A stretch of DNA of 64,000 nt from Turicibacter sanguinis (GTDB taxonomy: Bacteria; Bacillota_I; Bacilli_A; MOL361; Turicibacteraceae), in the NCBI RefSeq assembly GCF_013046825.1, contig NZ_CP053187.1, positions 2,452,001 to 2,516,000 on the forward strand, in the 5' to 3' direction. The first letter of the stretch is position 1. The number at the start of each line of letters is the position of its first letter. Of this stretch, positions 36,583 through 54,400 are shown piece by piece. The position numbers and the translations under genes are program-made. Under the pieces are notes generated by a model that had not been told where the DNA came from, did not search any database, and saw nothing but the letters and a program-made list of their open reading frames with translations.

Positions 36583-36611
36583 TTGTTTTTCAGACTCTTT
36601 CTAGCTATAAT
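36583..36611 (+). promoter_or_regulatory. Sigma-A promoter of the alanine T-box operon
   Basis: TTGTTT (36583-36588), 17-nt spacer, TATAAT (36606-36611), just upstream of T-box stem I. Confidence 0.7.
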
Positions 36612-36631
36612 AAGGTAAAATAGTTAAAGAT

Positions 36632-36876
36632 TATGATAAGAAAGAGTAAATCTAGTCAACTTTTTTAGAGAGCTAACGGGTGGTGGAAGTTAGTAAAGCA
36701 TCTAGGTTGAAGCAGTCTTTGAGTCGCTAGCTGAGAACTAAAAAGCATGTCTTTTTAATTAGGCTAAGACGTTCCCTCGCGTTACTGAGGACTTGAGTGG
36801 GTAATTTAAATTACTTATTAGGGTGGTACCGCGAAGTAGTCCTTCGTCCCTTTTTGGGATGAAGGACTTTTTTTAT
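36632..36876 (+). promoter_or_regulatory. T-box riboswitch with GCA (alanine) specifier
   Basis: A complete T-box leader. Stem I holds the loop-E AGUA (36645-36648) opposite GAA (36709-36711), the AGAGAG and GGTGGAAG distal elements, and directly after the GAA the specifier codon GCA (36712-36714), which reads alanine. The conserved T-box AGGGTGGTACCGCG is at 36820-36833. The terminator AGTCCTTCGTCCC/GGGATGAAGGACT with a T-run ends near 36876. Uncharged tRNA-Ala should pair with the T-box bulge, favour the antiterminator and switch on the downstream regulator and aminotransferase. The specifier position was checked against the Trp T-box in this window, where the codon after GAA is UGG. Confidence 0.92.
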
Positions 36877-36902
36877 TTTCATTTGAGCTAGGAGGAAAGA
36901 TG

Positions 36903-37382
36903 ATGGAAGAAATCTTAGAGATTTTAGAACAAAATAGTCGATATACCGACGAGCAAATTGCCGTGATGACCGGTAAAACAGTAGAAGAAGTTCGCGAAGC
37001 GATTCAAGATTATGAAGAGCGAAGTATTATTGCAGGCTATACAACCCTTATCAATTGGGAGAATACGGGTCATGAAACAGTGACGGCGTTAATTGAGGTA
37101 AAAGTGACACCACAACGTGGAGCAGGATTTGATAGTGTCGCAGAACGCATTTATAAATTTGATGAAGTGCGTGCTTGTTACCTGATGTCAGGTGGATTTG
37201 ATTTAACGGTCATTGTGGAAGGAAAAACGATGAAGCAAGTGGCGATGTTTGTTTCTGAAAAATTAGCCGTTCAAGAATATGTCTTAAGTTGTTCAACACA
37301 CTTTGTCTTAAAAAAATATAAAGATCATGGAACCATCTTTAAAGACCAGGAATTTGATGATCGTGAGGTTGTGATTTTATGA
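36903..37382 (+). CDS. alaR: Lrp/AsnC family regulator, AlaR-like
   Basis: A 159-aa transcription regulator with an N-terminal AsnC-type HTH (about 1-50; LEILEQNSRYTDEQIAVMTG) and a C-terminal ligand-sensing RAM domain (about 65-150; ALIEVKVTPQRGAGFDSVAERI, then CYLMSGGFDLTVIVEG). Size and position next to an alanine-type aminotransferase match B. subtilis alaR (yugG)-alaT (yugH). The second of two adjacent ATGs (36900, 36903) has better spacing from GGAGG. It follows the alanine T-box and overlaps alaT by 4 nt (ATGA), so translation is coupled. Confidence 0.85.
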   Translation: MEEILEILEQNSRYTDEQIAVMTGKTVEEVREAIQDYEERSIIAGYTTLINWENTGHETVTALIEVKVTPQRGAGFDSVAERIYKFDEVRACYLMSGGFDLTVIVEGKTMKQVAMFVSEKLAVQEYVLSCSTHFVLKKYKDHGTIFKDQEFDDREVVIL

Positions 37383-38548
37383 GATTAGAAAATATGATTT
37401 TAGAGAATGTAAAAAAAATGCCACCATCTGGGATTCGAAAGTATTTTGATATGGTGCATGAAATGGAAGGTGTGATTTCTTTAGGAGTAGGCGAGCCTGA
37501 TTTTGTGACTCCATGGAATGTTCGTGAAGCGGGAATTTATTCACTTGAACAAGGTCATACCCATTATTCTTCGAATGCTGGATTCATGGAATTGCGTCAT
37601 GAAATTTCACGTTATTTACATCGCCGTTTTAATTTAAGCTATCAGGTGGATGAAATTTTAGTAACCGTAGGAGGGAGCGAAGGGATTGATCTTGCACTTC
37701 GAGCACTTGTTGGTCCGGGTGATGAAGTCATCATTCCAGAACCAAGTTTTGTCGCATACAAAGGATGTACGACATTTACTGGAGCCACACCTGTTGTGAT
37801 TGAATTAAAGGCTGAAAACGAATTTAAATTAACTGCAGAAGAATTAGAAGCCGCGATCACGCCTAAAACAAAAGTTTTAATCATGCCGTTTCCTAATAAT
37901 CCTACGGGAGCGATTATGACACGTGACGAACTTGAAAAAATCGTAGAGGTTGTCAAAGATAAAGACATCATTATTATTTCGGATGAAATCTATGCGGAAT
38001 TAACATATGAAAAGGAGCACGTTTCCATTGCAAGTTTTGATTGCGTGAAAGATCAAACATTGGTGATTAATGGATTTTCAAAAGCGTATGCGATGACAGG
38101 ATGGCGACTTGGATACGTCTGCGGTCATCCAACTTTAATCAATGCCATGAAAAAAATTCATCAATATGCGATTATGTGTTCCCCAACAACCTCGCAATAT
38201 GCTGCGATTGAAGCGATGAAAAATGGAGATCATAGTGTTGAGACGATGGTTAAAGAATACAATCGTCGTCGTCGAGTCCTTGTGAATGGATTTAGAAAGT
38301 TGGGTCTTGATTGCTTTGAACCATTAGGAGCTTTTTATGTTTTTCCGTGTATTCAATCAACGGGATTATCATCGGATGAGTTTTGTGAGAAATTATTACG
38401 ATCAGAAAAAGTTTTAACCGTTCCAGGTAATGCTTTTGGGGATTGTGGGGAAGGATATATTCGTGCGTGTTATGCGTCATCTATGGAAAATATTATGGAG
38501 GCGTTAGTTCGAATTGAACGTTTTTTAAAACAAAATCCAACACGTTAA
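37379..38548 (+). CDS. alaT: Class I/II PLP aminotransferase, AlaT-like alanine transaminase
   Basis: A 389-aa PLP enzyme of fold type I. Seen: SLGVGEPDFVTP, the NNPTG motif (PFPNNPTGAIM), SDEIYAELTYE, and the cofactor lysine Lys235 in FSKAYAMTGWRLGY. Length equals B. subtilis AlaT (YugH, about 386 aa), which makes alanine from pyruvate and glutamate. The alanine T-box upstream and the Lrp-type gene overlapping it strongly support the alanine-synthesis role; direct substrate proof is lacking. Confidence 0.88.
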   Translation: MRLENMILENVKKMPPSGIRKYFDMVHEMEGVISLGVGEPDFVTPWNVREAGIYSLEQGHTHYSSNAGFMELRHEISRYLHRRFNLSYQVDEILVTVGGSEGIDLALRALVGPGDEVIIPEPSFVAYKGCTTFTGATPVVIELKAENEFKLTAEELEAAITPKTKVLIMPFPNNPTGAIMTRDELEKIVEVVKDKDIIIISDEIYAELTYEKEHVSIASFDCVKDQTLVINGFSKAYAMTGWRLGYVCGHPTLINAMKKIHQYAIMCSPTTSQYAAIEAMKNGDHSVETMVKEYNRRRRVLVNGFRKLGLDCFEPLGAFYVFPCIQSTGLSSDEFCEKLLRSEKVLTVPGNAFGDCGEGYIRACYASSMENIMEALVRIERFLKQNPTR

Positions 38549-38573
38549 TTAAACAAAAGAAAAGGTGAAGCTT

Positions 38574-39941
38574 TTGAAACATCAAGAAGAGTTAGCGACA
38601 AAGCCGGTTTATCGCTTATTAATTCAATATTCGATTCCTGCTATCGTAGGGATGATTGTTAATGCCCTGTATAATGTGGTAGACCGTATTTTCATTGGAA
38701 ATATTCCCGAGGTCGGTTCACTCGCCATAACAGGTGTTGGCATTACGCTACCAATTACCACCATTATTCTAGCCTGCGGGATGTTAGTAGGAGTTGGAAG
38801 TACCGCTAATATCTCGATTAAATTAGGGCAGGGGGAGCGAGAAAATGCAGAGCGTTTAATAGGAAATAATATCACCTTATCGACCATTATCGCTTTAGCA
38901 TTGACGGTTCTTGGCCTTGTTTTTAAAACGCCGATTTTAAATTTATTTGGGGCAAGTTCAAGCACTTTGCCTTATGCCGATCGGTATATTACAGTGATTT
39001 TATATGGAACGATTTTTAATGTGATGGGCTACTCTTTAAACAGTAACATTAGAGCAGATGGAAACCCCAAAATGGCTGCTTTAACGATGGTTGTTGGATG
39101 CATCATTAATATTATTTTAGATCCTATTTTTATCTTTGGATTAGGATGGGGAATTCAAGGAGCGGCTATCGCAACTGTTATTTCTCAGGCTACAACTGCT
39201 ATTTGGGTGTTACTTTATTTTGTTATGGGAAAATCACGATTGACGTTTAAATCAAAATTCTTGAAGCTTGAGTCTAATTTAGTCAAAAGTATCCTCGCAA
39301 TTGGATCAGCTCCATTTGCTATGCAATTAGCGGCGAGTTTAGTTCAAGTGGTCTCAAATAATACGTTAAAAGCTTACGGTGGTGATTTAGCCATTGGAGC
39401 CTTTGCGACGATTTCTTCCATTTCGATGATGTTTTTAATGCCGATTTTCGGTATTAATCAAGGAGCACAACCAATCATTGGTTACAATTATGGAGCTCGT
39501 GAATACCATCGAGCGAATCAGACCTTTTTATACTCTGTTTTAATGGCGTCTGCTTTTTTAACCATAGGTTTTATTGTGATTGAATTTTTCCCAGAAATGA
39601 TGATTTCACTTTTTAATCGTGATCAAGAGTTGATGGCGATTACAGTCAAAGGGATTCGGATTTATTTATTCATGTTTCCATTTGTCTCGATTTCAATTAT
39701 TGGATCCACGTATTTTCAGTCCATTGGAAAAGCACGGATTGCTATGATTCTAAGTTTATTGAGACAACTTATTTTATTAGTTCCTTTGCTTTTAGTTTTA
39801 CCTCCTTTTTTAGGATTAGATGGTGTTTGGTTGGCACAACCCATTTCGGATACATTAGCAATCTCAATCACCCTCTATTTCTTAGTCAAACAATTTAAAA
39901 AAATGAAGCGATTAGAACTAGCAAAAGGCGAAAAGCACTGA
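38574..39941 (+). CDS. MATE family efflux transporter
   Basis: A 455-aa MATE exporter. Features: LLIQYSIPAIVGMIVNALYNVVDRIFIG at the start, mid-repeat GCIINIILDPIFIFGLGWGIQGAA and GAREYHRANQTFLYS. This is the MepA-like layout. It starts with TTG at 38574: the SD AAAGGTGA (38561-38568) has proper spacing to this codon, while the GTG at 38565 overlaps the SD. It lies 25 nt after alaT, so it may be an extra gene of the alanine operon. A terminator overlaps its stop codon. Substrate unknown. Confidence 0.93.
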   Translation: MKHQEELATKPVYRLLIQYSIPAIVGMIVNALYNVVDRIFIGNIPEVGSLAITGVGITLPITTIILACGMLVGVGSTANISIKLGQGERENAERLIGNNITLSTIIALALTVLGLVFKTPILNLFGASSSTLPYADRYITVILYGTIFNVMGYSLNSNIRADGNPKMAALTMVVGCIINIILDPIFIFGLGWGIQGAAIATVISQATTAIWVLLYFVMGKSRLTFKSKFLKLESNLVKSILAIGSAPFAMQLAASLVQVVSNNTLKAYGGDLAIGAFATISSISMMFLMPIFGINQGAQPIIGYNYGAREYHRANQTFLYSVLMASAFLTIGFIVIEFFPEMMISLFNRDQELMAITVKGIRIYLFMFPFVSISIIGSTYFQSIGKARIAMILSLLRQLILLVPLLLVLPPFLGLDGVWLAQPISDTLAISITLYFLVKQFKKMKRLELAKGEKH

Positions 39942-39962
39942 AATTTTTCAGTGCTTTTTTTG
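39931..39962 (+). terminator. Intrinsic terminator after the MATE gene
   Basis: AAAAGCACTGAAA…TTTCAGTGCTTTT stem with T-run; the left arm lies in the last codons of the gene. Confidence 0.85.
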
Positions 39963-54147: not shown

Positions 54148-54167
54148 AAAAATATATAATAAACCTT

Positions 54168-54400
54168 TGATTGAGAAATAGTAGTTCGTCATCTGATTTT
54201 ACAGAGAGTCGATGGTTGGTGGAAATCGATAAATCAAGCGAATGAATGGGCTCATGAGTGGAACCTGAATGTGAAAGTAGGGAACTCGGATTCTTCCGTT
54301 ATCAAGACTAAAGTGGATAAATTAAGTTTATCTATTGAGGTGGCACCGCGGTAATATATCGTCCTCTATCTATGTGTACATAGGTAGAGGACTTTTTTTG
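54168..54400 (+). promoter_or_regulatory. T-box riboswitch with UGG (tryptophan) specifier
   Basis: Complete T-box leader: AGUA at 54180-54183, AGAGAG and GGTGGAAA distal elements, GAA at 54244-54246 followed by specifier UGG at 54247-54249, T-box AGGTGGCACCGCGG at 54338-54351 and terminator GTCCTCTA…TAGAGGAC with a T-run near 54361-54400. Uncharged tRNA-Trp should turn on trpS. Confidence 0.95.

Follow-up and report, generated by a model that had tools for sequence, protein, structure and literature searches.

The alaR-alaT gene pair of Turicibacter sanguinis is preceded by a leader that we read, with high confidence, as a T-box for tRNA-Ala, which forms with the two genes a cassette that is common in Clostridiaceae and has probably been shared horizontally with the family of Turicibacter. 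This leader (the alaRT leader) is a real case of an ordinary, known and widely conserved mechanism, acting on a target that we did not find described in the accessible literature. It lies in a 64-kb stretch of DNA (the window) from a 3.0-Mb genome in a single contig (G000), which holds 19 T-box matches, 17 of them above the cut-off. Two Rfam T-box matches reach the gathering threshold in the window, one before alaR-alaT and the other, at 54158-54369, before trpS.

In the covariance-model search, the alaRT leader matches RF00230 over its full length (142.4 bits, E 9.2e-32, the gathering threshold being 93 bits), and its features look like those of a canonical T-box of the antitermination type, including promoter and terminator (Table 1). 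The AGUA motif stands opposite the GAA, with GCA directly after the latter, in a specifier loop of 7 nt closed by the helix AAGA (36638-36641)/UCUU (36716-36719). Stem II is present, with an imperfect loop E (AAUUA in place of AGUA in the covariance alignment). The terminator and the antiterminator are mutually exclusive, since the antiterminator takes the 5' strand of the terminator; three terminators were found in the leader region, against 0.2 on average in shuffled sequence. The promoter is a prediction from the letters: a TTG...TATAAT pair occurs at the equivalent place in the three other leaders of the genus, and the TTGTTT/TATAAT pair is not among the sites that a consensus promoter scanner listed for this region.

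Table 1. Features of the alaR-alaT locus (window coordinates).
Feature	Position	Strand	Basis
Predicted promoter (TTGTTT, 17 nt, TATAAT)	36583..36611	+	read from sequence
T-box leader, stem I to T-box	36624..36854	+	RF00230
AGUA of specifier loop (loop E/S-turn, 5' side)	36645..36648	+	covariance alignment, sequence
GAA (36709-36711), specifier GCA (36712-36714) and purine G	36709..36715	+	covariance alignment, parser, sequence
Antiterminator with bulge UGGU (36824-36827)	36820..36852	+	covariance alignment; bulge complementary to ACCA of tRNA-Ala
Intrinsic terminator, 13-bp stem and U run	36838..36875	+	terminator scan; exclusive with antiterminator
alaR-like Lrp/AsnC-family regulator, 160 aa	36900..37382	+	PF01037 4.6e-15
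alaT-like class I aminotransferase, 389 aa	37379..38548	+	PF00155 6.1e-75; NF005816 567.5 bits
MATE-family transporter, possible third operon gene	38565..39941	+	TIGR00797 201.2 bits, over cut-off
Intrinsic terminator, 13 pairs, predicted operon end	39930..39959	+	terminator scan

From this anatomy, a regulatory loop can be proposed. Transcription would start near 36618. Charged tRNA-Ala(UGC) would leave the 13-bp terminator free to form, and transcription would stop. Uncharged, the tRNA would pair its anticodon UGC with the GCA of stem I, and its free 3' ACCA would base-pair with the UGGU of the antiterminator bulge, thereby blocking the terminator and allowing transcription of alaR, alaT and, probably, the MATE gene. 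AlaT would then convert pyruvate into alanine, uncharged tRNA-Ala would drop, and the loop would close.

The specifier of the window leader is GCA, an assignment that follows from three lines of evidence. In the covariance alignment, the single missing loop base falls directly after GAA, giving GCA with high posterior on those letters, so that the placement does not shift to another codon. With a structure-anchored parser, GCA is the only register that leaves a specifier-loop helix. Additionally, the specifier loops of G000 come in 7 nt (GAA-XYZ-R) and 8 nt (GAA-N-XYZ-R), and for all 11 leaders that have a regular loop and a gene named by HMM, the codon (read by eye) fits the gene, both for the shorter loop (leuS CUC, trpS UGG, serS UCA, proS CCA, pheS UUC) and for the longer one (brnQ AUC, valS GUA, asnA AAC, tyrS UAC, alaS GCU, glyS GGA). 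The preliminary description of this DNA had proposed an alanine T-box before alaR-alaT from AGUA and GAA loop-E elements with GCA right after the GAA, adding that the same register gives UGG in the trpS leader; all of this is borne out, the trpS leader having a 7-nt loop and a gene that passes TIGR00233.

The register check covered regular loops, leaving aside the leaders of thrS (irregular, ACU at spacing 2), ileS (AUC overlapping GAA) and hisS (GAC, an Asp codon), three transporter leaders that read CGC and have no independent amino acid assignment, and one decayed leader. The latter (L019, G000:C1:2266791-2266953) is a decaying T-box: its match (49.7 bits) is under the cut-off, it reads CAC (His), and nothing longer than short ORFs follows nearby. 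Two of the CGC (Arg) leaders (L007 and L011, G000:C1:238290-238820) are near-alike T-boxes arranged in tandem ahead of an ABC transporter for amino acids; L013 is the third. The structure-anchored parser was correct for 9 of the 11 known-gene leaders that it parsed, misreading trpS and glyS, and gave no parse for hisS, thrS and ileS. Applied to alaRT leaders, it reads GCA in 91 of 97, and hand reading of the remaining six gives GCA in L166, L176, L186, L237 and L248 and GCU in L147. AAA replaces GAA in L176 and L186, and L082, without a parse, reads GCA by hand. A looser first parser with wrong anchors, which returned CAG in 51 of 102 leaders, as well as TTA and others, was discarded; it also misread the thrS, ileS and one transporter leader of G000 itself.

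The tRNA side is compatible with this codon. Two pattern scans of G000 found tRNA-Ala with the anticodon UGC only, at two places, both confirmed by ARAGORN; they found none with GGC, in scans blind to a tRNA that departs from the patterns at more than 2-3 positions. The 3' end of this tRNA is ACCA (A73), complementary to the UGGU bulge, which is present in 98 of 98 alaRT leaders. UGGU also precedes asnA in G000, whose tRNA has G73, so the bulge is compatible with alanine rather than proof of it.

Concerning the genes, the preliminary description had named an Lrp-type regulator and an alanine-type aminotransferase. The first identity stands, the alaR product reaching 55.7 bits with the Lrp/AsnC ligand-binding domain (PF01037, cut-off 25), with all Lrp-type NCBIfam models below their cut-offs. 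The second stands in part: the best model for AlaT is NF005816 (PRK07682), which we take to be the family of B. subtilis AlaT, and its score stays under the cut-off of 620 bits, a cut-off passed in 1 of 14 control genomes. The nearest solved relatives of AlaT are named aromatic and aspartate aminotransferases. An alanine role for AlaT is thus far proposed by homology only, and its substrate in Turicibacter is suggested by the reading of the T-box together with the literature on B. subtilis AlaT; any action of AlaR is likewise conjectural, and with it the two-layer control that the preliminary description proposed, in which tRNA charging would be combined with an Lrp sensor. The start of alaT overlaps the stop of alaR by 4 nt, and the MATE gene, which the preliminary description did not include, starts 16 nt after alaT, with no terminator-like site on the + strand between the two and one at the MATE end; it probably shares the alaR-alaT transcript under the alanine T-box. 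Among the other genus loci, that of G004 has an intact MATE gene behind alaT (73%), as the window does; G001 retains a remnant of it, and in G002 none was found at this place. In C. intestinale a MATE relative (50%) sits directly ahead of the leader, and another Clostridium has one (39%) downstream of alaT.

Within the genus, an alaT ortholog is present in four of five genomes, the fifth being 85% complete, and all four carry a leader with GAA-GCA-G, though these leaders diverge much. The one other member of the family with close genes (G005; alaR 63%, alaT 74%) has no T-box at alaR-alaT by regular expression or cmscan. Across the class to which the window belongs, AlaT was found at E <= 1e-120 in 48 of 395 genomes, and a regular-expression search gave a T-box at alaR in 0 of 45 places outside the genus (several on short contigs, four without an alaR match). 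This had hinted at an arrangement special to Turicibacter, a view overturned by the Clostridium loci. The best of the 80 nearest named loci belong to Clostridium, C. intestinale having 83% identity in AlaT and 86% in AlaR, and nine of the 80 have a T-box directly before alaR (eight GCA, one GCU), with one further locus (L075) cut at a contig end.

In Clostridiaceae, the family of C. intestinale, the arrangement proved widespread, which had not been noted in the preliminary description. AlaT occurs there at E <= 1e-150 in 106 of 206 genomes, and 90 of these 106 have a T-box before alaR, 89 by regular expression and one (L216, GGGTGGTATCGCG), missed by it, by eye. Five of the remainder are cut by contig ends and 11 have no intact leader, which gives 90 of 101 assessable genomes. 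GCA is the codon of all 90 leaders, as read by the parser in 85 and by hand in 5; relatives keep GCN both here and in the four genus leaders, and the GCU of L147 is again such a codon.

Several loci depart from this pattern. Apparent remnants are kept in L174, L225, L241 and L255, among the 11 Clostridiaceae without an intact leader; upstream of alaR in L174 and L241, as well as in L077 (C. vincentii) and L080 (C. akagii), there are apparent T-box scraps and a terminator, with stem I gone. These remnants look like repeated loss of the switch. In L222, L225, L258 and L261, an apparent aminotransferase gene (by eye) ends just before alaR, and no leader can be traced in three of these loci. In L157 (G465), the leader is considerably lengthened by additional sequence that separates the stem II region from the antiterminator, while its GCA is preserved. 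The GCU leader of L147 (Clostridia bacterium RGIG6077, 2256-2468) precedes a distant alaR-alaT pair, possibly an independent capture of an alanine T-box by the same genes.

The phylogenies of proteins and leader agree in crossing class boundaries. In a quick tree built from AlaR joined to AlaT (73 rows, 546 columns), the genus and G005 fall among Clostridiaceae, inside a set of 39 rows with 100% support, and their grouping with Bacilli rows is rejected (p-AU 6e-64). The leader tree has 60 rows, of which 39 are alaRT leaders from Clostridiaceae; in it, the genus sequences of this type join those of Clostridium (94/92) and stand apart from all 17 other G000 leaders that were included. Since proteins and leader both group with Clostridiaceae, they probably share a history, the cassette having moved between lineages by horizontal transfer. 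Transfer from Clostridium to Turicibacter is the simpler reading, not a proven one, because a single Clostridiaceae clade without the genus is not rejected (AU test, p 0.248). In addition, L086, L087 and L107 have alaR-alaT on contigs labelled Melainabacteria, the first two among Lachnospiraceae rows in the tree; binning errors or transfer are possible explanations.

Three other accounts of the alaRT leader were weighed. If the specifier lay one register further on, it would be CAG and the leader would sense tRNA-Gln. CAG does stand one nucleotide after GAA, a spacing that occurs in six known-gene leaders of G000, the crude pairing of the first parser preferred it, and in L237 it scores slightly better than GCA (-6.2 vs -5.1). 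Against this, the window leader keeps a helix only with GCA; the base next to a CAG specifier would be C or U, yet in 91 of the 97 best parses it is G; where the loop has one base more (L078, L081, L082, L083), GCA still adjoins the helix; and the distant L147 leader has an alanine codon too. Furthermore, tRNA-Gln has G73, yet a UGGC bulge appears in 0 of 98 leaders. We give the glutamine reading next to no chance.

It could also be argued that the leader is a decaying relic, with alaR-alaT under AlaR alone at the promoter, as the decayed leaders in C. vincentii, C. akagii, L174 and L241 and the imperfect loop E of stem II in the window might suggest. This is very unlikely for a leader with so high a covariance score, with all its switching elements intact and a perfect terminator, and with a codon kept in every genus genome that has alaT despite the divergence of the leaders. 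Hardly credible, in turn, is a local invention in which Turicibacter copied the T-box of its own alaS: both leaders read alanine codons and have the UGGU bulge, but the codons differ (GCU in alaS, GCA in alaRT), the window leader shares 74% identity with an alaRT leader from Clostridium, and the alaS leader of the same genome sits elsewhere in the leader tree, on which this origin was rejected. A tRNA-Ala T-box that shares its history with alaR-alaT is the reading that we retain.

The alaS T-box of G000, also absent from the preliminary description, raises the question of how one tRNA would be read by two leaders. Of the 84 alaS leaders read, 80 have GCU, namely 74 of the 78 from Clostridiaceae, all 5 from the genus and that of G005, and the other four have GCA; in two further family genomes (G006, G007) no alaS T-box was found by regular expression. 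Both leaders were read in 65 Clostridiaceae genomes (the subset of the 90 with listed alaS places); there, alaRT has GCA in 65 and alaS has GCU in 64 and GCA in one. A pattern for tRNA-Ala(GGC), used without a positive control, matched in 0 of the 206 Clostridiaceae genomes. In C. acetobutylicum, UGC is the sole tRNA-Ala isoacceptor and the GCU of alaS gives a tolerated U-U mismatch, according to the accessible part of Liu, Grundy and Henkin (2015, PMC4695836). It thus seems that one tRNA-Ala(UGC) serves both leaders, pairing perfectly with the GCA for alanine synthesis and with a U-U mismatch at the GCU for the synthetase. A more speculative proposal, which we consider rather unlikely, is that this tRNA drives the two T-box classes at different set points, so that mild uncharging would raise alanine synthesis and stronger uncharging would be needed to raise alanyl-tRNA synthetase, with a split that was held across Clostridiaceae and travelled to Turicibacter. 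The split may be mere inheritance, one inherited difference seen many times, although the four alaS leaders with GCA indicate that a codon change is possible.

Known systems offer close parallels. The pair alaR-alaT (yugG-yugH) of B. subtilis is a regulator-aminotransferase pair as in Turicibacter; we know of no T-box there, and its AlaT is reportedly the main alanine aminotransferase of that organism. PMC12893347, in its accessible portion, cites Sidiq 2021 for this role of AlaT. The preliminary description had stated that AlaR controls the B. subtilis pair, for which we found no confirmation, the accessible part of PMC6522883 listing the regulation of AlaT as 'Unknown'. The alaS T-box of C. 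acetobutylicum and B. subtilis, as far as the available text of PMC4695836 goes, is likewise an alanine T-box with a UGGU bulge acting by transcription antitermination, with UGC the only isoacceptor in C. acetobutylicum as it is the only one found in G000, but it controls the synthetase and reads GCU with a U-U mismatch, whereas the alaRT leader would control synthesis and reads GCA; 'GCA' is absent from the main text of that paper. T-boxes that precede genes of amino acid biosynthesis (Wels 2008, PMC2494555; the 2013 regulon survey, PMC3766115) share with the alaRT leader the RNA family, a biosynthetic operon and a matching codon, and the word 'alanine' is absent from both main texts, a listing in their supplements being possible. 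For C. difficile, 26 T-boxes including alaS are reported, with no alanine aminotransferase in the accessible table portions (PMC11477304). No literature match named a T-box on alaR-alaT, and we do not claim its absence from print.

The U-U mismatch is tolerated in alaS (PMC4695836, accessible part), and why it persists beside a leader with a perfect GCA is a question worth asking. Paired leaders in one genome, facing one tRNA with different third-position pairs, offer a direct way to learn whether T-box thresholds are set by specifier pairing. With the alaRT leader, alanine synthesis joins the T-box targets of Clostridiaceae and Turicibacter; as an alanine T-box, this leader also lends independent support to AlaT as an alanine enzyme.
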